A stretch of 36,274 bases of DNA from a virus: positions 1 to 36,274 of IMG/VR virus record IMGVR_UViG_3300027881_000043; one strand, given 5' to 3'. The first letter of the stretch is position 1; each line of letters starts with the position of its first letter. The position numbers were made by a program, and so were the translations under genes. This document shows positions 13,201 through 31,059 of this stretch, piece by piece. The notes under the pieces are model-generated. The model was not told the DNA's origin. It did no database searches and worked only from the letters and a program-made list of their open reading frames with translations.

Positions 13201-16200
13201 TAACCCTGCGCTCAAGAACTACAAAGAGATCCATCTCACCGCCCCCCACGTGCCAGCCACATGGAATGACGGACACGGCTTTGCACATGACATTCTGAAT
13301 CCCATCGGGCGGATTCGTATGCACGACATGGTAACACACGACGGTCAGTCAGTCCTCATGCTCGAGGAACTGCAGCCACCAACCAAGTCTAACTTCGCCA
13401 AGATGCCCGCGTACCTGCAAGAGAATTGGCAGAGCCTGCTCATGCGGCGTGCGTATGCCTATGCTATTGCAAACGGCTACAAGCAGATGGCGTGGACGGA
13501 CGGTATGACACAGGCCCTGCGCAATGGGCACACAGTCAAGCCTACCGCTGTGCGTAAGATTACGACGGCCCAAGGCGAGGCAAAGTACTACTGGTCAGAC
13601 TATAACAACTGGTTCGTTGCGACTGTTGAAGCGCAAGACAAACTTATGTCGGATGACTTGAAAGCAGCAGTTGCCGCCAGCTCCACGACTACGTCAGTGG
13701 ATGACATGTCGGATGCAAGTGCTGGCCCTAGTGTGGGGCGTTTGCTTGACCATCCGTTTACTCGGACTACCATTTCAGAAGGAATGGTTGCGGACGAGAT
13801 TCAGGACGAGGCTCAAATACCCTTCTCCCCTACACATATTACTACAGTCTTCTTTGGTAGCGAGTGGCCTGTTGAGATGCAGGGTGATCACTTCGTTGCA
13901 TTCTCATCCATGGCCTATGAAGCAGAGATCATCGACGAGTCTGCTATTCCAGAAGATCTCATGCGAGAGATTCAAGATGCTAGAATCACGACCAGCGAGT
14001 ACGACGTAATTACGTATGTTGAACCTTGGCTGCAAGCGCTGGCTAAAGAGAACAACCTGCAGGAATACAAACTGTCGGCTGAGGACAAGAACAACCCCAA
14101 GATGTGGCTCCACGAGACATCGTGGGAGACGGCGCACTATGACAGGCGCATGCCACGCACCGCCAAGAAGATGGGCAACGAGCAGCCGGGCAAATACAAG
14201 TCGACCGTCGGTGAAGTAGCCTGGGATGCCGGTGCTAAGGGTCGTGTCACCAAGCGTGTGCACATGCTGGAGGTGCCGGTCGACGGCACTGTGATCATGA
14301 AGGCCGTGGCACCTGATCCCACCAGCAACACACCCTGGAGAGAACTCAATGAGATTGGCAAGGAGCGCCAGGACCACCTCAATGAACTCATCTACAAATC
14401 CCTCCAGGAATTGGCTGCACTCATTGCTCCCGGGGCCAAGATCGATAAGAACAATGCTGTCGTCGAGGCTTACCACGGCAAGAAGTGGGGTGGTATATCT
14501 ATGGGTAGCACCATCTGGCTGGCCCTAGACCGTATGCGCCCAGGCGAGAAGCGCTGGAACGAGGCGCTGTTCACGGCCTTCCATGAGATGGTCCATTACC
14601 TCGACAGAGAACATAACCTGATGGATGACGCCAAGTCAATCATTGCAGAGGATCTCGGTTCTGCGCAGGCTCTGGTGGCTGAGTACTACGGACAGGAACT
14701 TGGCTTCGGTCGCGAACATATCTACAAGATCATGCAGGAGATGGAGGCTAACCCACAGGAAGCGCTAGCCTATACCGCCTCCGTGTTCATGATCCAACAG
14801 CAGCAGCAAGACATGCGCATGCAGCGCTGGCCTGTACCCATGCAGAAGCTCCTTCGTCGTCTGATGAAGTGGCTCCGACGGTTCCGAAATGCTCTGATGA
14901 GCGGCGGCTTCACACGCATGGATGACATCTTCCAGGAGGTCAGAGACGGTCGACGTGGAGCACAGCTCAGCCTTGATCGCAACCCAGCCGCACACCAGAC
15001 AGCGATTCAGATGGCGCAGCAGCTAGCCATGGGCGAAGAGGCCTTCCGGCGCTGGTTCCAGGGGAGCCATGCCATCGACGGGGGCGGTCGACCACTAGTC
15101 CTCAGCATCCCTTCGCAGACAGGTGACCCCCTGATGACGGACTTCGCAGGTCCCATCGGTCCGGGCATCTACATGTACGACAACCCACTGCACGCTGCTA
15201 AGCACGCCGAGGACACCCAGGCGTACGAGTACCTGCGCGACTTCATGCCTGATGACATGGGGCCTGCAGAGCTAGAGGCGTGGCAGGAGTGGCACAACGC
15301 AGGCTTCCAAGGGCCTCAGGTGTTCCCTGGTGTGGCCTCTATCAAGGACCCTCTCTATGCTGATAGACCTATTACAGATATTCAGCGTGCTTGGATGCAC
15401 CGGCAGGTTGACCCCCTTGTGGAGAACTACCCCGTCGAAGCTGCAGGTATTAAAGCTACCATTGATCAAGCCGTTACTCTTCAAGATCTGATCAATTCTG
15501 ATACGCCTATGGTTGCGGAGTTTCCTCTCCAGATCGCACGCAAGGGTGGCTTTGATGGCATGCGTATGGACGGTGTCTGGATTGCACTAGACAACAACGC
15601 CAAGGACTTGCAGGAGAACGTACACGAGGCCAACCAGGCACTCATCGACATCACACGCAACTGGCGTAAGCCGCAGGTTGCTCTGGACTATGAGAAGCAG
15701 GCACCTACGGACGTCTCAAAGTGGAAGAGTTTCTTTGCCTCACCGCGGGGCGCGGCCAAGCGCAACGGATACATGGCTAAGGCCTACATGGCTGGCTCGG
15801 ACATGAAGCGCTGGGGTTCCCAGATCGTGGCCAATTCCACTATGCACATCCGCCCCTACGTGCAGCTCAGTAGTGAGAAGAAGGACATTGCCAACAAGGT
15901 CATGGAGGTGGCACGCATAAATGGCAAGAAGCTTATCCTGACTAGAGATAACCACATCGTCATAGAAAACACAACGGGTCGTGACCTCCAACTCTCTAAG
16001 AGGGATGAGGTGGTACGTGTTGAGGACCTGGAAACTGTTGAGGCCCTTATCTCCATGCAGACGTTGGGCGAAGAGATGCTCGGGTATTTCAAGGAAGCCT
16101 ACCTGCACGAACAAGAGTACACACTGACACAGACTGGTCATCGGGCACAGGTGCCTACTGACCTGACTGCCGAGAAGGCTACGGAGATGAAGAACAACTT

Positions 16201-18805
16201 CAAAGCCTGGGCGCAGACAGAACAACTGATTGCTGGCGAGGGTGAGAAGAGCAGAATAGCAGACAAGTTCCGCACACAAGCTGAGCGCTTTACGGAGATT
16301 GCTAAGCATCTCAAAGAGCTAGAGCATCAAATGCAAGACTCCATGTACGTGCCGTTCAGTCGGTTCGGTGAGTGGGGTATGGCTCTCGAGGCACCCAAGC
16401 TCGATGAAGATGGTAACATAATCACCGACGATCTCGGCGAGATAGTCTATGAGGACTCGGCATTCCTGTCCTTTGAGGAAGAGTGGACGGTGAAGGGTAA
16501 GAGGATCAACAATGCCAAGGTCAATACGGAAGTAGCTGAGGCTCTCGGCCGACGTGAAGGCTCGCGTGTTAAGAAGGGTGATGGCAAGGGCGTTGCTGTC
16601 TACGAACTAGACGAGGAAGGCAAACCCGGCACAGAGGTTCATTGGAAGAAGCTAAGCAAGCAGGCTACACCTGAGCTGATCAACGATACTATAGAGGATC
16701 TCAAGGAACAGTACCCAGGCTTGATCATCAGGGAAGAGACGCGCGACGAAGCGCCCATGTTCAAGATGACCAAGAACATCATCAACCGCATGGCGGGCAA
16801 CCCCCTGCAGGCTATGGACATGTTGGTGGGGCAGCTCAGTGACGCCAAGAAGGACGCCTACAAAGACATCGACACCCTGGTCAAGCAGCTTGTCAAGCAG
16901 CGTGGCTTTGGTGCTCACCTCAAGCACTCCCAGATGCTTGACGGTTACTCCACTGACTTCGAGAAGGCTTGGGGCAGGTATATCATTGGTGCGGCTGGCT
17001 TTGCATCGCGCATGAAGTATGGCATGAAGCTCAAGCAGATCGTGGGTAACATCCCTGCTGAGATGCCTCAAGTCAAAGAGAATGCGGACAAGTATCTCAA
17101 GAATATCATGGAGCCAACCGAGGATTTGAAGAAGATTCGGGCGCTTACGTTCTTCTGGTACCTAGGCTTTAACATGAGTTCTGCTGCTATACAGCTCATG
17201 AACCTACCTATGTACTCTGCACCCCACCTGAGCGGGCTTACAGGGAGCCTCAGGGCCTACCAGGAGGTGACCGCCGGGTTCGCTATTGCTGCTAAACTCA
17301 TGGGTACGCAGGGTCTGAAGAAGACCAAGGGCCTCAAGAAGTTCGCGGGACAGGTCACAGGTGACCCGCATTGGGACAGCCCTGAGGTGCGCAAACTATT
17401 TAAGAACGACGCAGAGTTCGAGGCTGTCAAGCGCGCGTGGGACGAGGGCTTCCTGGCTCCGATGCTCATGCTGCAGCAGGTTGGCGTGACCACCAATGAC
17501 ATCCCCAACTGGCGCTACGCCAAGGACATGAACAAGATTGTCACGATGGGACAGAACTACAGTGCCGCAGCGTTCGGCGCGATGGAGAAGATGGGTCGTA
17601 TTGCCCAGTTCATTGCAGCCTACCGCATTGCACAAGACCCCAAATCCCTCCAGAATGCTAACCGCAATCTCAAGGACGAGTCTTTGTGGAACGAGATGAA
17701 CAGGCAGGACCCAACTGATCCAGCTTACAACTTCTCCATCTACATGCTTGACGACATCATGGGGCAGTTCGATAAGACCAACCGGGCACCGTACGAGAAC
17801 ATGCCTGGCGGTTTGATTGTCTTCCAGTTCCAGACCTGGGTGCGTCAGATCCTGTCCACCATCTTGAGCAACATAGCTCACCGCGGACCGGGTGGCAAGC
17901 TGGCTGCTCTCCAGATGGGTGCGATGATGCTGATCTTTGCTGGGTATGAGGGCATGCCGGGGGCGGAGGATGCCGAGGATCTGGCAGAAGAAATCCATGG
18001 TATGTTCTCTGACTACGACCTGGACATCACCCAATTCCTCAGAGATTTTGCTCGTGATGAGATGGGCATGAGCGACGGCGCTATCTCTGCATTGATGCAT
18101 GGTGTGCTACGGCCCATGGCTGGTGTCGCTATCGACAAGCGGCTTGGCCTCGGTAAGTTCCCTGGCTCTGAGCTGGCGCGCTCCATATTTGGAGAGGGTG
18201 ACGCCTACGAGATCGCCGGTCCAACTGGCTCGACCTTCGTCGGTAGCTACAAGGAGTATGACCGACGTCGTGAAGGTGGTGAAGGCATGCCTGCAGCACT
18301 CTTCAGATCTATGACACCACAGTTCGTCAAGAATCTAACAAGCATGGTCATGAATGCAGGCGAGGGCTACAAGACACAGCGTGGGCACACCGTCGTCTCG
18401 AAGGAAGACATCAAGGCATACCACCACCTGCTTAAAGCGATGGGCTTCAACCCTGCCATCCTGGCTGATGCTGGTGAGAGGCGACGTGCCGAGCAACGTG
18501 AGTCGCAGGACACTGGACCTACACAAAGGTACCGCGGCAGGCTTGTGCGCATAGTGGGTGCCATGATTGATGCCCAGCGCAGGGGTGACATGGAAGCGGC
18601 GCGCGACTACGCCCAGCAGATGCAAAACATCTTCGCCAAGATACAGCGGCACAACGAACAGGCAGCTCCAGAAGACTGGATTAGAATTAACATGCGTGGC
18701 ATTATTAAGAGCGCACGTTTTGATATGAACCCTCAGCTTAGGGGCATCATGTCTGCTCCAGTGCACAAACGCAGACGCATCATGCAGATGCGCGGAGAGT
18801 TGTAA
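10238..18805 (+). CDS. Giant polyvalent / PLxRFG-type internal virion protein (2855 aa)
   Basis: This one protein carries several modules. Residues about 205-260 form a hydrophobic glycine-zipper region. Residues about 640-810 are charged coiled coil. Near residue 1040, MLEELQPP corresponds to the EEIQSD-type motif of phage polyvalent proteins. At 1449-1453 is HEMVH, a zinc-metallopeptidase HExxH motif, in FHEMVHYLD. At about 1602-1785 is a region resembling ADP-ribosyltransferase domains of polyvalent proteins (FRRWFQGS, GPGIYMYDN, GGFDGMRMDG). Near 2039 is the PFSRFG form of the PLxRFG motif. The C-terminal third has hydrophobic and helical segments (FWYLGFNMSSAAIQLMNLP) typical of this class. 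Such proteins are thought to be packaged and ejected into the host, where their enzymatic parts act early. Domain assignments are by motif recall. Confidence 0.7.
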   Translation: MAEFELPTGEVVYVPEEHVGSEAAAQAIQQRFLSPEANKNSIVGALHRAEAARNTEYNPTSSSVGEDFVRFNNFYENKRLAVMANAWGDDKVDTWIERGSRPEEVPKEIKEYTDRVLGATTTPEDVGAITRGFISQLGGGNAEMLGQAMQALGDTSGLDHVQRWGADVVRWGEDNAEGYDLHEPKLEDVDSVGGFFTYVGEGIGELAATLVPVGAASLLGAAAGSTVAPGLGTVGGAALGAGTTSYVFGVGETRQAIMQDPTVQQRIRDGEITHNDIAKLSLIAGVPIALLDVYGLGKATQVASRDARAKIKGALIKYILASSAKGAGYEGTTEGAQEVITTAFKNAVGDGDWDTEDLSGIMNAAAKGTIGGTALGTGGSAYKAGRVAYSDRLIDRAMQNAPRETDPVSEEAGIDDTPEQQDSAMAYYEELVRGHNREELGDEDATVYDFNTTMDRLREDETLAEREIEELKRRTPQRDPNDTRTTEDKEAAAATEGGTVDPQIPPSTDPDTLRDAGFTESEIRDPKHVDPYKVRTAKEGFGYVAGEWRPITQKDVTRERAEAKIRQDKDKTSLQLWVTKHGIWEGKHANIFGSDSPAMTYEEAVARTENTEKYNSIANKYSRQLKRRKDWGAQNPGYFKSEAKRKAKEKRAAAKRAQARVEEAVKKEIVPVAEAPVEPEEVAMHQIDEEIQEKVAEHRTVSEHRIDPTPITTVNAANSHELQLIANKRREAEMQRRAAEDAALDEAQDERNAKLRAEIVELQAQAREADRQAARAEAEAATSAKAKGLAEEHQRMWTAIANKDMSSYGDVVALAQELRSLGQTITQDDVPVLAHMTSKARQGDAALGGSGASYRELLKRQVLEFLPEVNFMLADTSIASLDDGFSRLHDPVLRVLQKIPTKSMPIKDWLDVIRGATNQLYVDMLMVQDTHDGSIDPMTDEELSEKKTKHFMMNWVRERQLHIVEVVSNVNAAESPPHMGRRGTIIGDNPALKNYKEIHLTAPHVPATWNDGHGFAHDILNPIGRIRMHDMVTHDGQSVLMLEELQPPTKSNFAKMPAYLQENWQSLLMRRAYAYAIANGYKQMAWTDGMTQALRNGHTVKPTAVRKITTAQGEAKYYWSDYNNWFVATVEAQDKLMSDDLKAAVAASSTTTSVDDMSDASAGPSVGRLLDHPFTRTTISEGMVADEIQDEAQIPFSPTHITTVFFGSEWPVEMQGDHFVAFSSMAYEAEIIDESAIPEDLMREIQDARITTSEYDVITYVEPWLQALAKENNLQEYKLSAEDKNNPKMWLHETSWETAHYDRRMPRTAKKMGNEQPGKYKSTVGEVAWDAGAKGRVTKRVHMLEVPVDGTVIMKAVAPDPTSNTPWRELNEIGKERQDHLNELIYKSLQELAALIAPGAKIDKNNAVVEAYHGKKWGGISMGSTIWLALDRMRPGEKRWNEALFTAFHEMVHYLDREHNLMDDAKSIIAEDLGSAQALVAEYYGQELGFGREHIYKIMQEMEANPQEALAYTASVFMIQQQQQDMRMQRWPVPMQKLLRRLMKWLRRFRNALMSGGFTRMDDIFQEVRDGRRGAQLSLDRNPAAHQTAIQMAQQLAMGEEAFRRWFQGSHAIDGGGRPLVLSIPSQTGDPLMTDFAGPIGPGIYMYDNPLHAAKHAEDTQAYEYLRDFMPDDMGPAELEAWQEWHNAGFQGPQVFPGVASIKDPLYADRPITDIQRAWMHRQVDPLVENYPVEAAGIKATIDQAVTLQDLINSDTPMVAEFPLQIARKGGFDGMRMDGVWIALDNNAKDLQENVHEANQALIDITRNWRKPQVALDYEKQAPTDVSKWKSFFASPRGAAKRNGYMAKAYMAGSDMKRWGSQIVANSTMHIRPYVQLSSEKKDIANKVMEVARINGKKLILTRDNHIVIENTTGRDLQLSKRDEVVRVEDLETVEALISMQTLGEEMLGYFKEAYLHEQEYTLTQTGHRAQVPTDLTAEKATEMKNNFKAWAQTEQLIAGEGEKSRIADKFRTQAERFTEIAKHLKELEHQMQDSMYVPFSRFGEWGMALEAPKLDEDGNIITDDLGEIVYEDSAFLSFEEEWTVKGKRINNAKVNTEVAEALGRREGSRVKKGDGKGVAVYELDEEGKPGTEVHWKKLSKQATPELINDTIEDLKEQYPGLIIREETRDEAPMFKMTKNIINRMAGNPLQAMDMLVGQLSDAKKDAYKDIDTLVKQLVKQRGFGAHLKHSQMLDGYSTDFEKAWGRYIIGAAGFASRMKYGMKLKQIVGNIPAEMPQVKENADKYLKNIMEPTEDLKKIRALTFFWYLGFNMSSAAIQLMNLPMYSAPHLSGLTGSLRAYQEVTAGFAIAAKLMGTQGLKKTKGLKKFAGQVTGDPHWDSPEVRKLFKNDAEFEAVKRAWDEGFLAPMLMLQQVGVTTNDIPNWRYAKDMNKIVTMGQNYSAAAFGAMEKMGRIAQFIAAYRIAQDPKSLQNANRNLKDESLWNEMNRQDPTDPAYNFSIYMLDDIMGQFDKTNRAPYENMPGGLIVFQFQTWVRQILSTILSNIAHRGPGGKLAALQMGAMMLIFAGYEGMPGAEDAEDLAEEIHGMFSDYDLDITQFLRDFARDEMGMSDGAISALMHGVLRPMAGVAIDKRLGLGKFPGSELARSIFGEGDAYEIAGPTGSTFVGSYKEYDRRREGGEGMPAALFRSMTPQFVKNLTSMVMNAGEGYKTQRGHTVVSKEDIKAYHHLLKAMGFNPAILADAGERRRAEQRESQDTGPTQRYRGRLVRIVGAMIDAQRRGDMEAARDYAQQMQNIFAKIQRHNEQAAPEDWIRINMRGIIKSARFDMNPQLRGIMSAPVHKRRRIMQMRGEL
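11744..11755 (+). repeat. Dispersed 12-mer, copy 3
   Basis: Exact CAAATCCCTCCA in the giant gene, read in the third frame as QIPP. A one-mismatch copy in the opposite orientation lies 96 nt further on (11851-11861, with AA in place of CT at its start). Confidence 0.9.
14395..14406 (+). repeat. Dispersed 12-mer, copy 4
   Basis: Exact CAAATCCCTCCA in the giant gene, read as KSLQ. It is one of only two copies not preceded by C. Confidence 0.9.
17641..17652 (+). repeat. Dispersed 12-mer, copy 5
   Basis: Exact CAAATCCCTCCA in the giant gene, read as KSLQ. Confidence 0.9.
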
Positions 18806-19053
18806 TGAGTACGAACGATGATATAATGAGGGCGCTGGGCAACATCGAGGGCAAGGTCGATGGGCTAGAGCAGCACTGGAAGGATGTCAAGCACGATGCT
18901 GAGGTCAAGGACAAGCAGGTTGAGCTTGATCATCAGAAGGTGCTGGCGCGCATCAATAGGATAGAGAACAAGCAGTCCTGGTTCACCGGACTAGTGACTG
19001 TGAGTGTAGGGGTGGCCTCCTTCCTGGGCATCAACTTCTTCGTTGGCAACTAA
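18805..19053 (+). CDS. Small coiled-coil protein with C-terminal membrane helix (holin/XhlA-like)
   Basis: This is an 82-residue protein. The first 55 residues are a charged helix with heptad-like spacing (IEGKVDGLEQHWKDVKHD, ARINRIENKQ). The last 24 form one hydrophobic helix (WFTGLVTVSVGVASFLGINFF). The layout, an amphipathic coil followed by one C-terminal membrane anchor, resembles XhlA-type lysis proteins and other small phage membrane proteins. It is coupled to the giant gene by TAATG and is the last gene before the terminator, a common place for lysis genes. No endolysin is visible nearby, so a lysis role is only a possibility. Confidence 0.7.
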   Translation: MSTNDDIMRALGNIEGKVDGLEQHWKDVKHDAEVKDKQVELDHQKVLARINRIENKQSWFTGLVTVSVGVASFLGINFFVGN

Positions 19054-20504: not shown

Positions 20505-20632
20505 TACCGCGTCCTTCCTTCGTTAGCTATGTTGTTCTTGATCTCTCGCGAGAGCGTGTCTACCTCCGCCTCGAGGCGGAAGATGCGTTGCCACAACTTC
20601 TCTACCTCTGCGTATAGTTGTTCATTAGTCAC
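20504..20632 (-). CDS. Small coiled-coil protein (42 aa)
   Basis: This short GTG-started frame has 43 codons ending in TAA. It overlaps the reductase stop by 8 nt at its start, and its own stop overlaps the ATG of the holin-like gene. The sequence reads as an unbroken heptad helix: LYAEVEKLWQRIFRLEAEV, then DTLSREIKNNI, with Leu/Ile/Val at a/d spacing and charged flanks. No other frame of this stretch is open. The close coupling on both sides and the regular heptads support a real gene. Its function is unknown; it may oligomerise or partner a membrane protein. Confidence 0.6.
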   Translation of the reverse strand: MTNEQLYAEVEKLWQRIFRLEAEVDTLSREIKNNIANEGRTR

Positions 20633-22319
20633 AAGATTTAGTCCCTGTTTCTGGGTCGTAGAAGCAGGCAGCACCATCGCTGTCTTCCTCCACGGCCGCG
20701 CGCATCATGTTGTCACGTGACTTGCCGTCGGTGTAGGTGGCTAGTCCTTTGCACCCGTTCTTCCACGCCGTCCAGTAGATGAGACGGAACTCGTCCCACG
20801 TGATGTCGTTCGGGCAGTTGACCGTTTTGCTGACGGCACTGTCCACAAAGCGGTAAGCAGCGCTGACAACGGCAACGTGTTCTGCGACGCTGACTTCGTG
20901 CGCTGTCTTGCCTTCGATGCCCCACTCCCGGTAGGCATAGTCGTCGATGACGAAGCTTTCTTCTCCGTCCGGGAACTTGACGTCTCTTTCGACTCGATGT
21001 GTGAACACAGGCTCAATACCACTAGATACATTATCAGCACAAAGACTGATAGTACCAGTAGGGGCAATAGAAAGTAGGTGGCTATTCCTAATGCCATGAA
21101 GGCGAATGGAATTCCTAATAGAATCAGGGAGAGTGCGAGCAAAACCACTATCGAGATACTTATCATCGAATAGAGGGAATGCGCCTTTCTCCTCAGCCAA
21201 CCTGACGCTTGCTCCGTAGACTGCATCTCTCATTACCTCCATGATCTTGTTTTGCATCTTGATGTAGTGTTCACTACCATACGGCAGGCCCATAGCCTCG
21301 ATGGCGTTGGCCATACCTGTGACCCCCAGGCCCATGCGACGTTTGTTCAGCGCCTCTTCTTTTTGCTCCGGGAGTGGGAAGTGTGCTCCGTCAATGATGT
21401 TGTCAATGGCTCGAACAACGGGAGGTATGTGTGACAGAAAGAGATCGGTGTCGAATCTAAATCCTCCCAGATCTCGGACCATGTACTTGGCCAGGTTAAA
21501 CGACCCAAGCAGACAAGCACCGAACGGTGGCAGAGGTTGCTCAGCGCACGGATTGGTCGCCTCCATGACTTCACAGTAGTGGAGGTTGTTCTGTCTGTTG
21601 ATGGTGTCAAGGAACAGCACTCCTGGCTCGGCGTGCTCGAGTGTTGAGCGCAGTATGAGTTTCCAGAGTGCTCTAGCCCGTACTGTTTTGTAAACTCGTC
21701 CTTCAAAGACGAGGTCAAAGTCTTCATCATTTGCCATCTTCCTCATGAAGTCGTCGGTCACCCCGACGCTTACGTTAAATTGTGTCCATCTTTCTGGCTC
21801 TGACTTGGCCCTTACAAAGTCTTCAATATCTGGGTGGTCGATACGAAGCACACCCATCTGGGCACCCCGTCTATGTCCTGCACTAGAAACTGCTTTGCAG
21901 CACATGTCGAACATGTCGATAAAGGGTAGTGGACCACTAGCTTCCGAGTCAAGAGATACAATGTGGGCACGCGCCGGGCGCAGTCGTGAGAAGTCATAGC
22001 CTATACCTCCGCCTACTCGCATGGTTTGGAACGCCTCGGTCAGCCGAAGCATGATGGACTCAGTGTTGTCCTCGATGATACCCGACACGAAGCACGAGAA
22101 GGGAGTCACGGTGCGTACCGCCCCCACCGCGGACTGCTGTCGCCCTGCTGGTAGGAAGTACTGGTTGCCCACGATGGGGCGCATCTGTTCAAAGTGTTCA
22201 AGACTGTCTTTTGTCGCGTCACAAAAACGGATGACCATCTCGTTGAATGTCTCGTCTTTGGCACGGTATTTTATTTGATGAAGCTTCTTCGCTAGCTCCA
22301 TTGTGGGACCTGGGAACAT
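20625..22319 (-). CDS. nrdJ: Adenosylcobalamin-dependent (class II) ribonucleotide reductase
   Basis: This 564-residue monomer-type reductase makes deoxynucleotides from ribonucleotides for phage DNA synthesis. Visible family blocks in order are FLPAGRQQ, TPFSCFVSG with the substrate-site Cys, GGGIGYDFSRLRP, NPCAEQPLPPFGACLLGSFN (catalytic NPCxE-type site) and IAPTGTISL. The C-terminal tail carries Cys residues (ACFYDP, KSCD-end) that could re-reduce the active site. There is no partner R2-type gene, as expected for class II. I chose the ATG at 22319 because GGAGAAAGG lies just upstream; a GTG 18 nt earlier falls inside a hairpin arm. The host or its surroundings must supply cobalamin. Confidence 0.9.
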   Translation of the reverse strand: MFPGPTMELAKKLHQIKYRAKDETFNEMVIRFCDATKDSLEHFEQMRPIVGNQYFLPAGRQQSAVGAVRTVTPFSCFVSGIIEDNTESIMLRLTEAFQTMRVGGGIGYDFSRLRPARAHIVSLDSEASGPLPFIDMFDMCCKAVSSAGHRRGAQMGVLRIDHPDIEDFVRAKSEPERWTQFNVSVGVTDDFMRKMANDEDFDLVFEGRVYKTVRARALWKLILRSTLEHAEPGVLFLDTINRQNNLHYCEVMEATNPCAEQPLPPFGACLLGSFNLAKYMVRDLGGFRFDTDLFLSHIPPVVRAIDNIIDGAHFPLPEQKEEALNKRRMGLGVTGMANAIEAMGLPYGSEHYIKMQNKIMEVMRDAVYGASVRLAEEKGAFPLFDDKYLDSGFARTLPDSIRNSIRLHGIRNSHLLSIAPTGTISLCADNVSSGIEPVFTHRVERDVKFPDGEESFVIDDYAYREWGIEGKTAHEVSVAEHVAVVSAAYRFVDSAVSKTVNCPNDITWDEFRLIYWTAWKNGCKGLATYTDGKSRDNMMRAAVEEDSDGAACFYDPETGTKSCD

Positions 22320-22332
22320 AGTAAACCTTTCT

Positions 22333-22354
22333 CCCACCCCCGCGTGGGGGTGGG
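22333..22354 (-). promoter_or_regulatory. Leader hairpin before the reductase gene
   Basis: A perfect 9-bp stem (CCCACCCCC / GGGGGTGGG) with a 4-nt loop lies directly upstream of the reductase ribosome site. No T-tract follows on either strand, so it is not an ordinary intrinsic terminator. It could control reductase translation or protect or process the mRNA end. Confidence 0.7.
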
Positions 22355-22378: not shown

Positions 22379-22516
22379 TTAGGGTCGGGGGCCTGACTTC
22401 TTGCCGCCCGATTTGACCGGCTTCTTCACCGGCTTCTTCTTAGCAAAGATCTTGCTGTAGTTATCACGGTACGCGTCGTTGGCAGCACCGCTGTGTAGTT
22501 TGTCGTGATGGCTCAT
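22379..22516 (-). CDS. Small basic protein (45 aa)
   Basis: This protein starts MSHHDKLHSG and ends in a lysine/proline-rich tail (KKKPVKKPVKSGGKKSGP). I chose the ATG at 22516 because AGGAGA lies 7 nt upstream, and because the longer frame only overlaps the preceding gene. It overlaps the stop of the signal-peptide protein by 4 nt. The very basic tail suggests binding to nucleic acid or to an acidic partner. The family is unknown. Confidence 0.6.
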   Translation of the reverse strand: MSHHDKLHSGAANDAYRDNYSKIFAKKKPVKKPVKSGGKKSGPRP

Positions 22517-22818
22517 GAATCGTCTCCTAATATTTCGGGTGGAATCACTGTGAATCCCTTCCCTGTTCCAAGGAACCTGGACATCCATGCGGGGGTAGTC
22601 TCCACAATGGTCCAGTTATTCCCATCGCTATACCACTCGATGATGTTGCCGTTGAATGCAACACCCATCACAATGGGTATCTCTTTGAAGTTCTCTGCCA
22701 AGCTGGTGCGCACCTGATCATACGGTACCCACTGTGGAACCTCTTGGCCCACTACATTGGTAGTCAGAAGGATGCCGACAAAGCATGCTGCTGCCAATAA
22801 GTATGGGATGAATTTCAT
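22513..22818 (-). CDS. Signal-peptide (periplasmic) protein of the envelope cassette
   Basis: This is a 101-residue protein with a classical signal sequence (Lys, then about 17 hydrophobic residues, MKFIPYLLAAACFVGILLTT) and a likely cleavage near residue 24-26. An LAAAC within it is only a weak lipobox, so a lipoprotein is less likely. The mature part has an alternating strand/turn pattern (IPIVMGVAFNGNIIEWYSDG, WTIVETTPAW), a small beta domain. It overlaps the preceding gene by ATGA. Its place after the TolQ/ExbD-like pair suggests a periplasmic partner of that machine. The family is unknown to me. Confidence 0.65.
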   Translation of the reverse strand: MKFIPYLLAAACFVGILLTTNVVGQEVPQWVPYDQVRTSLAENFKEIPIVMGVAFNGNIIEWYSDGNNWTIVETTPAWMSRFLGTGKGFTVIPPEILGDDS

Positions 22819-23216
22819 GGTACTTCTTTCTCTGGTGATGGAGTCAACTCCCGTTGTAGTACACGGAACTTGCCCTCCTTGTGGACGATGTCATAGCCTC
22901 TGATCTTACCCTTTTTCTTTGCCTTGCCTGCTGCTTGGAGGGATTTGGCGAGACGCGTAGACCAAGGGACAATGTAGTAGCGGATGCCTGCCTTCGTCTG
23001 TGCCCATATGTGTATGCGTACCTCGTGTTCCAAAACGTGCGCGACGATTCCCCGCGTCACCGTTGTAGGCATTGGTCTGCCCCTACCTAGGATCTCGGGT
23101 ACGATGAAGAAGATACCTGCCACGATGGCAGCAACACCAACCAGGGTGCGCCAACTAGGGAACAGGACCCATGCCATGCCGCCGATGGCAAACGTGAGTG
23201 ACAGGAACAGTAGCAT
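22815..23216 (-). CDS. Two-helix membrane protein of the envelope cassette
   Basis: This is a 133-residue protein. Two membrane helices lie at about 1-19 (LLFLSLTFAIGGMAWVLF) and 24-43 (TLVGVAAIVAGIFFIVPE). A soluble part of about 85 residues follows, starting with Arg-rich sequence (GRGRPMP) and ending in a basic, Gly-Lys-rich segment (KAKKKGKIRGYD). The positive-inside rule places the soluble part in the cytoplasm. It begins 8 nt after the ExbD-like stop and overlaps the next gene by ATGA. A 12-mer copy encodes KSLQ near residue 92. The function is unknown; genetic linkage ties it to the TolQ/ExbD-like pair. Confidence 0.65.
   Translation of the reverse strand: MLLFLSLTFAIGGMAWVLFPSWRTLVGVAAIVAGIFFIVPEILGRGRPMPTTVTRGIVAHVLEHEVRIHIWAQTKAGIRYYIVPWSTRLAKSLQAAGKAKKKGKIRGYDIVHKEGKFRVLQRELTPSPEKEVP
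22936..22947 (-). repeat. Dispersed 12-mer, copy 8
   Basis: Exact CAAATCCCTCCA on the coding (-) strand of the two-helix membrane protein gene, read as KSLQ. Confidence 0.9.
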
Positions 23217-23224
23217 GTCTGGAC

Positions 23225-23764
23225 TTAGAATGGTAGTATCCCCTCATATATGTCATCCTGCTTCACGATGTGGGCGTTCTTGATCCAGAAACGGATGACT
23301 GTTTCCTCATCATTCAAGAACTCCAGGCCAACGGTACTCAGGTGGACGGTGCGGCCGTTGATCATGATCTCCACCTTGACAGCCACCGGCCCGGCGTAGC
23401 GATAGTAGTGGAGGTTGACAACGTACTTACCGTCGGGCAGCCCTCTGCTGTAGAGGTTCTCGAAGTTCAGGTCCAGGTTGTCGTTGACCTTGCCGAGGTC
23501 GTCCCGCACCAGATCAATGAACTCACCCTTGGGTCGCTTGAAGCCCACGACGTCGTCACCGGGGGCGGCAATCCACACATCAACATCCCCGCGGTGTCCA
23601 TCAGGCCAGCGTATCTGCACCGACAACGTGCCGGGTGGCCTAGCTTCGTCGTTCCTAGCCGGTGGGTTGACGTGCGACAACAGGATGATGGCAATGGCTA
23701 CGAACAGGAACATCATGTTGAGCAGGATGTCCCGGAACAGGAAGCGTGCTTTGGGTTTACTCAT
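23225..23764 (-). CDS. ExbD/TolR/MotB-like membrane protein with periplasmic beta domain
   Basis: This is a 179-residue protein. A short basic cytoplasmic start (MSKPKARFLFR) leads to one membrane helix about 12-31 beginning with Asp12 (DILLNMMFLFVAIAIILLS). An Asp at the head of the only helix is the proton-carrying layout of ExbD, TolR and MotB. About 145 periplasmic residues follow, predicted as a beta-sandwich (SVQIRWPDGHRGDVDVWIAA, FIDLVRDDLGKVN, GKYVVNLHYYRY). This outer part is not the usual ExbD/TolR or OmpA-like domain. It overlaps the TolQ-like gene by 8 nt. I infer that the two proteins form one complex. The exact partner and purpose are unknown. Confidence 0.6.
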   Translation of the reverse strand: MSKPKARFLFRDILLNMMFLFVAIAIILLSHVNPPARNDEARPPGTLSVQIRWPDGHRGDVDVWIAAPGDDVVGFKRPKGEFIDLVRDDLGKVNDNLDLNFENLYSRGLPDGKYVVNLHYYRYAGPVAVKVEIMINGRTVHLSTVGLEFLNDEETVIRFWIKNAHIVKQDDIYEGILPF

Positions 23765-24167
23765 CGAACAGGTGTGTCATCAGGGCTAGCCAGATGTATC
23801 CAACAGACCCGACTAGCGTGGTGTATAGTGCCACGCCCATGCCGGAGATTAGGGCTGTGACTAGCCCCTGTGCCCCTGACGCGGTCATGGCAACCGCAGG
23901 ATCGATGGACATCAGGGCCATGATGAAGCCCACGACGGTGCCGATGAGACCCAGGTTGGGCATCTGCTCCGCGGCGAACTCCACTCGGTCCCAGCGGTTG
24001 CGGAAGATAGCGTACCATCCATAGAGGAAGAGACCAAAAATGCCTGCCGATAGGTAGCTCTTGTCAGCCTCCCATATCATGTGCAACCACCCCACGTGCC
24101 ACGCTCCTACGAACAGCGCGCACGTGAGGATGAAGGCTACTCCCTTTTTGAATGTACTACCTGTCAT
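23757..24167 (-). CDS. TolQ/ExbB/MotA-like proton-channel subunit
   Basis: This is a 136-residue integral membrane protein with four hydrophobic stretches at about 10-30, 38-57, 70-88 and 102-131. The last two carry the family signature: PNLGLIGTVVGFIMAL (compare the ExbB block with G-L-L-G-T-V-x-G) and LISGMGVALYTTLVGSVG, with the conserved small and Thr residues that line the ion path. It is shorter than typical TolQ/ExbB and lacks their large cytoplasmic loop. I chose the ATG at 24167 because AGGAAG is 5 nt upstream. It lies directly before the ExbD-like gene, the normal pairing. The family call is fairly strong; the function in a phage is open. Confidence 0.68.
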   Translation of the reverse strand: MTGSTFKKGVAFILTCALFVGAWHVGWLHMIWEADKSYLSAGIFGLFLYGWYAIFRNRWDRVEFAAEQMPNLGLIGTVVGFIMALMSIDPAVAMTASGAQGLVTALISGMGVALYTTLVGSVGYIWLALMTHLFDE

Positions 24168-24474
24168 CACCGCTTCCTCTGAGTGTGCCTCGGGCCTGTC
24201 GAGACTTGAGCTTGGCTACGTTCATGTCCATCACCTCTTCCAGTGTAGTCCCTAAGAACGTAGCCAATCTACTATTATACCACATAATGTCACCAAGTTC
24301 AAGTATCATTTGGGTTCGAATGTCTGGTCCGTACCCATCTCGGATCAGCTTCTTGCGCTTGCCCGCCAACTCCCCTGCTTCCTCGTTGATGCCCAGGATA
24401 TAGCACTCCAGGCGGTGGTGTACAGGGTATAGATCAAGCTGGCTGATGATGTCGGAGTACTCTTTAGGCGTCAT
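24157..24474 (-). CDS. mazG: MazG-like nucleotide pyrophosphohydrolase
   Basis: This is a protein of about 105 residues. MazG-type metal-binding helices are visible in INEEAGELAGKRKKL (EExxE-like) and ILELGDIMWYNSRLA (ExxD). The conserved C-terminus is KLKSRQARGTLRGSGDDR-like, ending RGSGD. Phage MazG proteins hydrolyse nucleoside triphosphates or (p)ppGpp-like alarmones and help keep the host metabolically active. I prefer the ATG at 24474, which has GGAG 9 nt upstream; an ATG at 24489 gives five more residues. It overlaps both the small gene before it and the TolQ-like gene after it. A promoter for the envelope cassette lies inside it. Confidence 0.8.
   Translation of the reverse strand: MTPKEYSDIISQLDLYPVHHRLECYILGINEEAGELAGKRKKLIRDGYGPDIRTQMILELGDIMWYNSRLATFLGTTLEEVMDMNVAKLKSRQARGTLRGSGDDR
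24274..24302 (-). promoter_or_regulatory. Internal promoter inside mazG, facing the envelope cassette
   Basis: On the - strand TTGAAC (24302-24297), a 17-nt spacer, then TATAAT (24279-24274) with TGG before it. The segment TGTGGTATAATAGTA repeats the core of the promoters near 6147 and 20030. The predicted start is about 100 nt before the TolQ-like gene. It is also codons of MazG (MWYNS), so coincidence is possible. Confidence 0.6.
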
Positions 24475-24622
24475 AAGCTTTGTCTCCATAGTAGATCTTC
24501 AAGGTTTTTTTCAACTCGTGCACAAAAGTTTGGCAGGACACACCCATAACATCTGCTTCGTGCGCGTCGAGGGTGTCGATTAACAAGAACAGATCTTCTT
24601 GGTTGATAGCTTCATTCGTCAT
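24464..24622 (-). CDS. Small acidic protein (52 aa) between DUF1937 and mazG
   Basis: This short frame has 53 codons, from ATG at 24622 (overlapping the DUF1937 stop by 11 nt) to a TAA overlapping the mazG start. The sequence begins MTNEAINQEDLFLLIDTLDA and ends in a Lys-rich helix (HELKKTLKIYYGDKAYD). It is a regular two-helix pattern with acidic first half. Without it there would be an unexplained gap of about 120 nt in a gapless block, which supports it. I do not recognise the family. Confidence 0.6.
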   Translation of the reverse strand: MTNEAINQEDLFLLIDTLDAHEADVMGVSCQTFVHELKKTLKIYYGDKAYDA

Positions 24623-27469: not shown

Positions 27470-27646
27470 CTAAATACAACTGAGGACCATGTTGCTACGG
27501 ATAACATACAAGGCTTTCTTGTACGTCCCCGTGTCTCTCTCCACCCATACTCTGACATCGTATGCTCCTTTCTGGTGCCAATACACTTCAATGCTCTTGG
27601 CTAGTGTCCGCGACGCGGACGCGTTACTACAATATCTAATCGACAT
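27470..27646 (-). CDS. Small protein after the DNA polymerase (58 aa)
   Basis: This protein begins MSIRYCSNASASRTLAKSIE and continues with YWHQKGAYDVRVWVERD, a helix followed by strands ending in a beta-hairpin (YKKALYVIRSNM). I chose the ATG at 27646, which overlaps the polymerase stop by 11 nt, rather than the longer frame that only shadows the polymerase. It lies 3 nt before the helicase start. A 15-bp inverted repeat is embedded in its codons (27606-27620). The family is unknown. Confidence 0.6.
   Translation of the reverse strand: MSIRYCSNASASRTLAKSIEVYWHQKGAYDVRVWVERDTGTYKKALYVIRSNMVLSCI
27606..27620. repeat. Perfect inverted repeat, 7-bp arms
   Basis: GTCCGCG-A-CGCGGAC. The arms are separated by a single base, which makes a near-palindrome rather than a good RNA hairpin. 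It lies inside the small gene after the polymerase. It could be a protein-binding site or a chance GC-rich palindrome. Confidence 0.5.
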
Positions 27647-29264
27647 ACTTACGCAAGTCCCTTCCATTGAACCCAACCTTCATTTCACTAGGGATGATTA
27701 ACGTCCTCCCATTGATCGGGGTTTCCATATGCAGGAGTTCCGGTACCCGCTTAACCACATAGGCCAGGTCCTCTTCGCGGCATTGTCCCGCGACACTATC
27801 ATGAACCTGACTCATGATCTCTGCTTCGGGTAGCTCGTGATAGATGCGAAGCATACCCATGTTCAAAATCTCTGCGATCATACTCTGTGGTTTGTAGGCC
27901 ACACCCTCACGCAGAGTACCCATATCATCTAGCTTGCCCCAGAAGTAACGCTTGCGTCCCAGCGGGGTAGTGAGTGCACTGTCTGTCTCTAACTCTACCG
28001 CGGTCTGTGCATGCCACTTCTTGATGCCGGGGAAGGCACCAGGGAACACAAGGTAGCGTCCGTCCTTCTCATGCGCCAAGTCGTACAGGTCAAGACCCGC
28101 TGCCTTGTCCGCCCTCATCTCTCCGCCGAGGTACAGTAGGTACACCCGGAATGCCTGCTTCACAGAAATTTTCATGTTTCTTGCGAGAGAATGGGGAGTA
28201 AGTACGTAGTTGAGAGCGTGTCCAGCCCGCTTCGCCATATCTCGGTACGTAAAGTGACGATAGTACTTGTGCCCATCGGCGTACTCTTTGTCGGCAGGTA
28301 TCCCAAAGATCATAGAGGCGACGGTGGTGTGGAGGTCGGCCGACTCGCACGCTGTGATGTAATTCTCGTCGCCAGACAAGTACGCAACAGCACGGCTCTC
28401 CGCCTGCTCCAAATCAACGTTCCACAGTACCTTCCCTGTATCCGGAATAAAGATCCTGCGCAGCTCGGGGGCGACGTTTTGCAAATTCATCCCAGTGTCC
28501 CACACTGAGGTGGATGACGAGAAGCGTCCCGTCTCTGTTCCACATATATTGAAACTGCATCTCATCCTTCCATCGGTATCCATTCTCTTCCGCAGGACTT
28601 CGGCTAGGTTCTCTAGCGTCCGGCACTCTAGGATCGCGTTGCATATCAGCTTGGCCCGAGGATAATTTTGCGCGAGGGACTCAAGAGCAACAGCGTTAGT
28701 TGCAACCTTGACCTTCCCTTTAACCCGCTGGGTTTGAGTAGGCAAGCGCATATGCTTATACAATAGTTCTTGGAGCTGCTTTGGAGAGTGATAGTTAACA
28801 GTCTTCCCAGAAATGGCCAGTGCAAGTGACTGTAACAGACTCTCTCGCTCCACCACTTGCCACTTATTCGTCTTGCGCGTGTCATCTTTTTCCATCCCCC
28901 CAAGGCGTATGGCTCTCTGTACCAACCCGAGTTGGCGGTTCCGTACTTCTCTCTTAGCGATGGCGGATGTTTCGTAAACCTTGGACGGGCCGACGTCAGC
29001 GAGCGTGTATCCTGCATTGGGTTCCCCTTCTAGTGTGGTTCGGATCACGTCCTGGTCCACCAGCATGCCGCGGCGCATCATCGCATAGACTGGTGCTTGG
29101 AGGGATTTGGAAAGCTCGTACGTGCGCCTCGCCTCTGGCTCCATCATGGAGAGGAAGAGACCCGACAGTTCGTGTGTTACACCGCAGTCCAGGTCGCAGT
29201 ACGCCCACAAGTTCTCTTCCTTGTCCAGCTTGTAGTCGCCTAGCTCTGCGCTATTGATTATCAT
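27636..29264 (-). CDS. Family A DNA polymerase, C-terminal protein (ExoIII + polymerase)
   Basis: This is a 542-residue protein. It begins inside an exonuclease domain: Y22-x3-D26 (YCDLDCGVT) is the ExoIII motif, while ExoI and ExoII lie in a separate protein encoded upstream (29724-30764). Motif A is V-D284-LEQAE-S-R291 (the DxxxxExR form). Motif B is R341-DMAK345-...-Y353. Motif C is V487-H488-D489-S490, where most relatives have HDE. Four positions after Lys345, where Pol I has F762 and T7 has Tyr, this protein has His349, as in the KR..HG.NYG-type phage polymerases. GGGAG precedes the ATG by 5 nt. It should copy the phage genome together with the upstream half. Confidence 0.9.
   Translation of the reverse strand: MIINSAELGDYKLDKEENLWAYCDLDCGVTHELSGLFLSMMEPEARRTYELSKSLQAPVYAMMRRGMLVDQDVIRTTLEGEPNAGYTLADVGPSKVYETSAIAKREVRNRQLGLVQRAIRLGGMEKDDTRKTNKWQVVERESLLQSLALAISGKTVNYHSPKQLQELLYKHMRLPTQTQRVKGKVKVATNAVALESLAQNYPRAKLICNAILECRTLENLAEVLRKRMDTDGRMRCSFNICGTETGRFSSSTSVWDTGMNLQNVAPELRRIFIPDTGKVLWNVDLEQAESRAVAYLSGDENYITACESADLHTTVASMIFGIPADKEYADGHKYYRHFTYRDMAKRAGHALNYVLTPHSLARNMKISVKQAFRVYLLYLGGEMRADKAAGLDLYDLAHEKDGRYLVFPGAFPGIKKWHAQTAVELETDSALTTPLGRKRYFWGKLDDMGTLREGVAYKPQSMIAEILNMGMLRIYHELPEAEIMSQVHDSVAGQCREEDLAYVVKRVPELLHMETPINGRTLIIPSEMKVGFNGRDLRKYVD
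29098..29109 (-). repeat. Dispersed 12-mer, copy 10
   Basis: Exact CAAATCCCTCCA on the coding (-) strand near the start of the polymerase protein, read as KSLQ. Confidence 0.9.
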
Positions 29265-29723: not shown

Positions 29724-30764
29724 CTACGCCTCCTTCTTGTTCTGCGCCCAGCTTACCATCTGCTTGAACGCTGCTTCATTAGTATACGTTGATGCGAGGT
29801 ATCCAAGTCCCTTCTCAAGTTCAGGCTGCATCGCGTGATGCATAAGCATGGTGTCCTCACACTGCTCGGGTCGAGCACGGATAGCGAACTTACGGTCGAG
29901 CCACTGGATATCGTACAGAAAGTTCTGCCCCACCAGTGTTGTATCAGGGTTCTCAATATGCCTACGACACCACTGATACGCTTCAAACTCTTCCTCTTGG
30001 GTGTCCCAGTACGACCAGCCCGGCTTGGTCTTGTCCATGAACGGCACAACCAAAGCTGTTCGGGGTGTGGGCGCAAAACCGATACACAGTATTTGTTTCG
30101 TTGTCCAGGGGTCTGTTTCAATGTCAACACACAGTCGGTCGGGCGCAGGCAGGTGCAGTCTTTCAAAGGTGCTGAGGTCATCTAGTGTTGGCCTGATCCA
30201 TAGCTCTCGCTGGGGGCGGACCTTCTCCCTGTATCCCGACTCAATCCGTGCTTTAAGCAGGTCTTTTCCAACAGTCGCTCGGTGATGGAACTGTCCTTTA
30301 AGGATAGTCGTGGGGAGTAGTGTCGGTATGACCTTTCCGTATGGAGAGTCCAGCACAGTTCCTCGATATTTAGTGATGCCTTTGAGTCCTGTGAGAATTT
30401 CGAGAGCGACAGGGCCAACAGCGATAGTAACAACAGGGTTGTAATCACTGAGAGCAGCAGCAACACGCGTTGGCTCTCCTTTCCACTCATCATTTAGCTT
30501 TCCTTTCGTGTAGAAAAACTTAGTGTCATTCTGCGGTGGCCGTTCGGAGAAGCAGGAGACCACGAGACATTCACGTCGGTCGATCCCGGCGGCACTGAGT
30601 AGCTTATTGAATAGCCGCCCGGCTTTACCAGCAAGGGGATAGCCTGAGACTGCGTCCTCTTCATCGGGCACTCCTACGACTAGGGCTATTCCGTTTCCGC
30701 TTCCGCCGCTTTGGGGTAGCTGATCCCGCACGACTTTCAGGTTTGGGTTGATGCTTGATCTCAT
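29724..30764 (-). CDS. Uracil-DNA-glycosylase-like domain fused to the 3'-5' exonuclease half of a family A polymerase
   Basis: This is a 346-residue protein. Residues about 26-185 resemble family 4-type UDGs: VVGVPDEEDA with GYPLAGKAGRLFNKLL in place of the GEAPG..E...PF.G..G block, then ECLVVSCFSERPPQ and TIAVGPVALEIL. The late HPS-type motif reads LPT here (TLLPTTILKG), so the enzyme may be inactive or altered. Residues about 210-325 are the exonuclease N-terminal part: ExoI D214-IE216 (DIET), ExoII with N281 and D285 (GQNFLYDIQWL) and ED304. The protein stops before ExoIII, which is in the polymerase protein. I chose the ATG at 30764 (GGGAG upstream). It overlaps the preceding gene by 104 nt. 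Confidence 0.72.
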   Translation of the reverse strand: MRSSINPNLKVVRDQLPQSGGSGNGIALVVGVPDEEDAVSGYPLAGKAGRLFNKLLSAAGIDRRECLVVSCFSERPPQNDTKFFYTKGKLNDEWKGEPTRVAAALSDYNPVVTIAVGPVALEILTGLKGITKYRGTVLDSPYGKVIPTLLPTTILKGQFHHRATVGKDLLKARIESGYREKVRPQRELWIRPTLDDLSTFERLHLPAPDRLCVDIETDPWTTKQILCIGFAPTPRTALVVPFMDKTKPGWSYWDTQEEEFEAYQWCRRHIENPDTTLVGQNFLYDIQWLDRKFAIRARPEQCEDTMLMHHAMQPELEKGLGYLASTYTNEAAFKQMVSWAQNKKEA

Positions 30765-31059
30765 TCTTGATCTCCCTGGTGAACGCTGCGTCAGGTGCCA
30801 GTCGCTCGAGTCTCTCAAGTATCTCGGCAGGCTCATCTGTCCACACGTTAACCCTCTTTAAAATTGGGTGCCACTTGGCGTTGTTGAATACCTTGCGGCG
30901 CTTGCGGTAAGGACAGTAGATGGTGACCAGCTTGCGCCCCGTCTTGATCACCAAATCCCTCCACCCTGCGCCGAGTACGGGTGCCTCGTCCTCCAAGTAC
31001 ACCCGCGCCCAACTCCATTTAGCCACGCAGCTTTCCAACATTTCGCATCGACATATCAT
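30661..31059 (-). CDS. Small basic protein with a long overlap into the next gene
   Basis: This is a 132-residue protein (or 126 from the ATG at 31041). The N-terminal part has Trp-rich strands (WSWARVYLED, VLGAGWRDL) and a basic helix (CPYRKRRKVFNNAKW). The last 35 residues form a strongly basic tail (KPESRAGSATPKRRKRKRN). The final 104 nt lie inside the start of the UDG-exonuclease gene in another frame. The leader before it (TTTTGGAGAG and upstream) is repeated before the gene at 34462. Nucleic-acid binding is likely from composition. A 12-mer copy is antisense (WRDL). Confidence 0.6.
   Translation of the reverse strand: MICRCEMLESCVAKWSWARVYLEDEAPVLGAGWRDLVIKTGRKLVTIYCPYRKRRKVFNNAKWHPILKRVNVWTDEPAEILERLERLAPDAAFTREIKNEIKHQPKPESRAGSATPKRRKRKRNSPSRRSAR
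30952..30963 (+). repeat. Dispersed 12-mer, copy 11
   Basis: Exact CAAATCCCTCCA antisense to the small basic protein gene; its complement is read as WRDL. It is the only copy followed by C instead of a purine. Confidence 0.9.

Follow-up and report, generated by a model that had tools for sequence, protein, structure and literature searches.

The locus examined here raises the question of why a virus should carry what looks like a proton-driven machine of the bacterial envelope, and what such a machine might do in an infected cell. The window, i.e. the whole stretch of DNA that was analysed, comprises 36,274 nt (positions 1 to 36,274 of IMG/VR virus record IMGVR_UViG_3300027881_000043). At 22513-24167 on the minus strand it holds, as the earlier note had claimed, a cluster of four tightly packed open reading frames (ORFs), overlapping or at most 8 nt apart. 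The first, B (23757-24167; 136 aa from the ATG at 24167, or 137 aa from an alternative GTG start at 24170), is predicted to encode a small channel subunit of the MotA/TolQ/ExbB family. It is followed by D (23225-23764; 179 aa), with an ExbD-like layout and a beta-sandwich outer domain, by X (22815-23216; 133 aa), a third conserved subunit with two N-terminal membrane helices, and by a gene for a signal-peptide protein (22513-22818; 101 aa; phrog_25396, E 2e-9). D and B overlap by 8 nt, D and X are separated by 8 nt, and X overlaps the signal-peptide gene by ATGA.

Directly upstream of B, on the same strand, lies a mazG-like pyrophosphatase gene (24157-24489; phrog_229, E 2e-34; Pfam MazG), whose stop at 24157 is overlapped by the B start. 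The earlier note had suggested that the cluster may have a promoter of its own inside mazG. A site of this kind does exist on the minus strand at 24274-24302 (TTGAAC-17-TATAAT, TG-extended, 10/12; ~110 nt before B), but the region contains three promoter-like sites against 1.9 +/- 1.3 in shuffles, so that the site provides no evidence of a promoter; given the overlap between the B start and the mazG stop, read-through from mazG is as likely. The cluster is flanked on one side by a large ribonucleotide reductase gene (20625-22337) and on the other by a block with MazG, DUF1937 and a dATP/dGTP diphosphohydrolase-like gene, with primase, DNA polymerase, RNA ligase and polynucleotide kinase genes further along. 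The late genes occupy the opposite strand and end with a holin-like ORF (18805-19053). No integrase was found among the window proteins scanned, and the record may be a fragment. Among deposited phages the nearest relative of the window DNA polymerase is that of Caulobacter phage Kuura (31% identity), with which an alphaproteobacterial host would agree. Two side observations concern the same region of the record and its late operon. The polymerase gene seems split into two minus-strand ORFs (27636-29264 and 29724-30836, ~460 nt between them) that match consecutive parts of phrog_17 (479-801 and 802-1229), and no Pfam match was obtained for a 2855-aa ORF (10238-18805) located towards the end of the late operon.

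Profile searches with B recovered the relation to MotA, TolQ and ExbB that had been proposed from its appearance. B scored 27.5 bits against Pfam MotA_ExbB (PF01618), above the curated cut-off of 22.9 (32.8 bits in another search), and all eight of its first relatives matched the same family (E up to 1; best E 2.9e-6). Searched against all solved structures, the B profile retrieved ZorA, MotA, TolQ, ExbB and PomA chains, with ZorA chains at the top and a weak ATPase c-subunit match as the lone exception. B thus reads as a true member of the MotA/TolQ/ExbB family, with about four membrane helices and almost no cytoplasmic domain. Its channel motifs, LGLIGTVVGF and GMGVALYTTLVG (numbered LGLIGT(78)VVGF and GMGVALYT(117)T(118)LVG), align through their Gly and Thr residues with those of MotA and PomA. 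Across all sequences collected, G74 and G77 are invariant (134/134 each), position 118 is Thr in 128/134 and Ser in the other 6 (Thr or Ser in 134/134), and position 78 is Thr in 109/134 and Asn in 23/134. In the pore of the Tol motor the polar site consists of Thr145 and Thr178 of TolQ and Asp23 of TolR (PMC12215075); by motif, Thr78 and Thr118 of B and Asp12 of D would be their counterparts.

The AlphaFold model of D (pLDDT 90.9) comprises a single N-terminal helix (residues 5-32), with Asp12 at its head, and a beta-sandwich spanning residues about 46-170. Asp12 is kept in 119/121 sequences, and W53, D60, D62, L85, D88, G91 and E102 are invariant in all 121, bearing out both the ExbD-like layout and the departure of the outer domain from the usual TolR/ExbD type. 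Neither D nor its relatives matched Pfam ExbD (PF02472) at E up to 1. D is therefore ExbD-like in layout only, the TolR/ExbD domain being replaced by a beta-sandwich with invariant acidic residues, and its proposed relation to ExbD is drawn from layout, the Asp and gene order. In VIA structural comparisons D reached Z scores of 10.0, 9.7 and 9.3 to 2qng, 2qz7 and 9a6r over 122-127 residues, against a background of about 6 from rank 5 onward and 8.8 for a radial-spoke chain; Foldseek returned nothing below E 0.001, with 2qng at E 0.012. The first and third VIA matches (the third named SCP2) we take to be members of the TerD family, and the modelled fold accordingly appears nearest to TerD proteins (Z about 10). 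Direct homology to TerD by sequence is unsupported, with no profile match of TerD (PF02342) to D and an hhalign probability of 0.3% against six TerD sequences, and TerD is kept here as a fold likeness only; genomes carrying B, D and X are mostly without TerD genes.

By sequence, the nearest known domain of D appears to be DUF2135 (PF09906). Window D scored 12.3 bits and a distant cellular D (L158) 21.5 bits against this model, both short of the cut-off of 22, and with the D profile DUF2135-like domains were retrieved from further alphaproteobacterial proteins (E 1e-7 to 3e-9). Given the invariance of the acidic residues and the folds that D resembles, D60, D62, D88 and E102 probably form a metal site, putatively for Ca2+. 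Domains related to the D outer domain were also observed in alphaproteobacterial proteins (L165:1010-2347, L166:1515-2402, L168:883-1902 and L169:1725-2744) that combine one helix and a long stretch rich in proline with a DUF2135-like domain at the C-terminus.

The two hydrophobic N-terminal segments expected of X are present, and its AlphaFold model (pLDDT 83.7) adds to the two helices a small beta-beta-beta-alpha-beta-beta domain. Nearly all members (alignments A3 and A8) carry Lys or Arg in the short inter-helix loop, which under the positive-inside rule probably places the C-terminal domain in the periplasm. Comparison of X with PDB folds gave nothing above chance, and searches of Pfam, PHROG and NCBIfam gave no match of note. 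Homology to TonB or TolA was not found, and X has two helices rather than one; its conserved position directly downstream of D suggests a positional analogue of these proteins.

Whether the four genes form a cassette was examined by seeking D-like sequences in deposited phages, IMG/VR and genomes. Single-protein IMG/VR scans with window D and window B gave no matches, and the eight-row alignment was too diverse for scanning; the sub-alignments A4 and A5 served as scan queries. Of the loci collected, 156 are complete, i.e. hold all three genes, some of them being repeat records. B, D and X lie on one strand in 156/156 and in the order B-D-X in 155/156, the single exception having X first, and in unrelated phages the reading frames are still preserved at identities as low as 20-40%. 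A further 71 viral loci were selected without regard to D, by the presence of an SbmA relative and enough upstream sequence; of these, 21 carried complete B-D-X, 50 had none of the three genes, and none had a partial set. B, D and X are thus one unit. The idea that all four genes travel together holds for these three and fails for the fourth: the 101-aa signal-peptide protein has one relative among about 155 loci (L155:9801-10121) and no match in the deposited-phage collection, and it appears to lie outside the conserved unit. A four-gene cassette is rejected on this count. The relative itself is a small secreted protein of a chromosome, encoded ~1.5 kb from B-D-X there.

Carriers of B-D-X include temperate, T4-like and jumbo phages, prophages and alphaproteobacterial chromosomes. 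The cultured ones all infect Rhizobium or Sinorhizobium (phage 16-3 and relatives, RHph phages, Pootjesviridae and a 171-kb phage), and B, D and X are annotated as hypothetical in the phage records examined. The unit is not specific to phages. D matches occur in 45/136 genomes of the SAR116 order and in 65/385 of the class Alphaproteobacteria (about 57 of them strong), and strong matches in 16/398 genomes surveyed at phylum level. SAR116 chromosomes hold B-D-X between housekeeping genes, at the same place in different species, and the flanks of the other cellular copies have nothing in common but B-D-X itself, from which we infer a self-contained system with a cellular role. Many independent SAR116 contigs (L084-L112) end about 75-110 nt before the B start, as if assemblies break there. 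In the D tree, sequences from viruses and cells are mixed, and well supported branches require at least three virus/cell changes, parsimony seven; phages and cells therefore appear to have exchanged the unit several times. Window D, on a long branch, falls with those of temperate rhizobiophages and related sequences (support 95/93).

In the viral genomes examined, B-D-X sits in metabolic/early, host-directed regions and not in lysis cassettes. Its context comprises mazG, DUF2829 and exonuclease genes in rhizobiophages, a gyrase, sigma, SbcCD and clamp region in Y68, and, in marine viruses (L040-L073, e.g. L055:2866-8108), genes for HSP20/HSP70, ClpS, ClpP, an SbmA/BacA-like peptide importer, FTR1 iron permease and NifU; an Fe-S assembly gene was also observed around the unit in the marine loci. 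SbmA accompanies B-D-X in several D clades and in different arrangements, a proximity suggestive of a part in import or in modifying the envelope. By itself, SbmA is frequent among viral contigs (202 relatives); it was not found beside B-D-X in rhizobiophages or cells, and the link to uptake may reflect shared phage ancestry only. As an obligatory partner SbmA is rejected, since 50 of the 71 comparable SbmA-bearing viral loci are without B-D-X. A gene for a trypsin-like, probably periplasmic serine protease lies near the unit in 34/73 viral loci, usually first, mostly in temperate rhizobiophages and also in prophages (L002-L006, L012-L037). In phage 16-3, B-D-X is located between the tail-fibre/immX area and attP. 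Because this stretch has been described as genetically silent, the unit is probably dispensable there in the laboratory.

Taken together, these features make it very probable that B-D-X is a proton-driven motor of the Tol/Ton kind. A ring of B in the inner membrane would surround a pair of D helices, presumably in a 5:2 complex, with a proton path formed by Asp12 of D and the ring of Thr78 and Thr118 of B. Ion flow could then drive the D beta-sandwich and, through D or beside it, X in the periplasm; as there is no cytoplasmic tail or effector, the force should act in the periplasm. The phage copies may represent a stripped-down version of an uncharacterised alphaproteobacterial envelope machine, acquired by phages and made together with nucleotide-metabolism genes, which would keep up or boost an energised process in the infected cell such as import or outer-membrane upkeep. 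As to biological role, an auxiliary device supporting such an energised envelope process is our tentative choice, held with rather less than half our confidence, and speaking against this reading is that no TonB-dependent receptor partner was seen. The explanation as a whole, a Tol/Ton-type motor borrowed by phages as an auxiliary envelope device, falls only a little short of even.

The main rival, which we rank below this role, is superinfection exclusion or lysogenic conversion, in which the motor would reshape the envelope, or sense its disturbance as ZorAB does, and so block injection by a second phage. Several observations would suit such a function: PADLOC and NCBIfam ZorA models are among the best matches of B (20.2 bits for the best), ZorA chains lead the PDB profile search, the 16-3 genes occupy a customary location of conversion genes, and B-D-X is found in temperate and apparently virulent phages alike. 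However, no genes for ZorC/ZorD effectors lie nearby, B is without the long cytoplasmic tail of ZorA, and the chromosomal copies of SAR116 are syntenic in the manner of housekeeping genes rather than patchy like defence genes. On this evidence we consider exclusion unlikely, though deserving of serious attention.

Less probable again is that the phage subunits join host B-D-X or Tol/Ton motors, replacing or jamming them. Some genomes of the class Alphaproteobacteria do carry B-D-X, and the segment of B between the second helix and the channel motif is much shorter in viruses (36-63 aa, one of 87) than in most cellular copies (up to 124), as if cytoplasmic contacts of the host machine had been dropped. 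Against this, the B of SAR116 chromosomes is as short as viral B in this segment (47 aa), and the viral units retain all three subunits as well as the channel residues, features that a poison could do without; we regard interference as improbable. A role in lysis timing or in outer-membrane disruption at lysis, the former among the earlier note's suggestions, agrees with the envelope location and with the presence, in some rhizobiophages, of lysozyme genes a few kb away at most and is nonetheless very improbable, because the holin-like gene of the window closes the late operon, which runs on the opposite strand, B-D-X keeps company with nucleotide-metabolism, replication or host-takeover genes in very different phages, and there are chromosomal copies without phage genes.

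With the support of an energised envelope process retained as the preferred role, the unit has wider implications. It is present in abundant marine SAR116 bacteria, in other alphaproteobacteria and in many phages of these hosts, and has so far gone unrecognised as a system. If the viral machine is indeed energised, it would show that, in the course of an infection, some phages spend proton motive force on the envelope. Its place in a genetically silent stretch of the classical temperate phage 16-3 makes it directly testable in laboratory Sinorhizobium.

Comparison with known systems indicates an old channel family in a combination that is undescribed in the libraries and papers searched. Our literature search found no description of phage-borne or alphaproteobacterial B-D-X, which does not prove its absence; a survey of MotAB proteins has nothing on DUF2135 and mentions phage only with Zorya (PMC12505986). 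An ExbB-family gene has been reported in Lentisphaerae phages, a 'TonB-system energizer ExbB' described as a single gene among polysaccharide genes and proposed as an auxiliary metabolic gene (PMC11361711). With MotA-MotB and PomA-PomB, B-D-X has in common a four-helix B and profile matches to MotA/PomA, but it lacks a torque domain, the OmpA domain of MotB and a flagellar context. Its likeness to Zorya ZorA-ZorB lies in the ZorA models and structures among the best matches of B, and a defence system in the Zorya sense is rejected: only 14-40 residues follow G121 in viral B in place of the long ZorA tail, D has no OmpA-like peptidoglycan-binding domain, ZorC and ZorD are missing, and PADLOC gave no meaningful match for D or X. 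D shares with TerD and DUF2135 (YfaP) a beta-sandwich fold (Z about 10 to TerD) and conserved DxD and acidic motifs, with a weak to moderate sequence match to DUF2135; it differs in being tethered to a motor helix, and neither the TerD profile-profile match nor the DUF2135 score reaches significance or cut-off, respectively.

The nearest systems are ExbB-ExbD-TonB and TolQ-TolR-TolA, encoded in the orders exbB-exbD-tonB and tolQ-tolR-tolA, which share with B-D-X the channel-subunit family and its motifs, a single-helix partner with an Asp at the helix head, and a gene order ending in a membrane-anchored third subunit (periplasmic, and predicted to be so for X). B-D-X departs from them in its TerD/DUF2135-like beta-sandwich in place of a TolR/ExbD domain, in an X with two helices and no TonB/TolA homology, and in a viral B almost devoid of a cytoplasmic domain; genes for a receptor, TolB or Pal were not seen with it. 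The known 5:2 motors are a handful, i.e. Mot, Tol, Ton, Agl, Gld and Zorya, to which B-D-X would add a compact and widespread set whose outer domain and third subunit differ from theirs. With slightly better than even confidence, we propose that B-D-X forms a class of its own, as yet unnamed, among proton-driven trans-envelope motors, its outer domain being metal-binding and TerD/DUF2135-like and its third subunit particular to it; alphaproteobacteria would be its native hosts, and phages of the temperate, T4-like and jumbo kinds would have captured it repeatedly for control of the infected-cell envelope.
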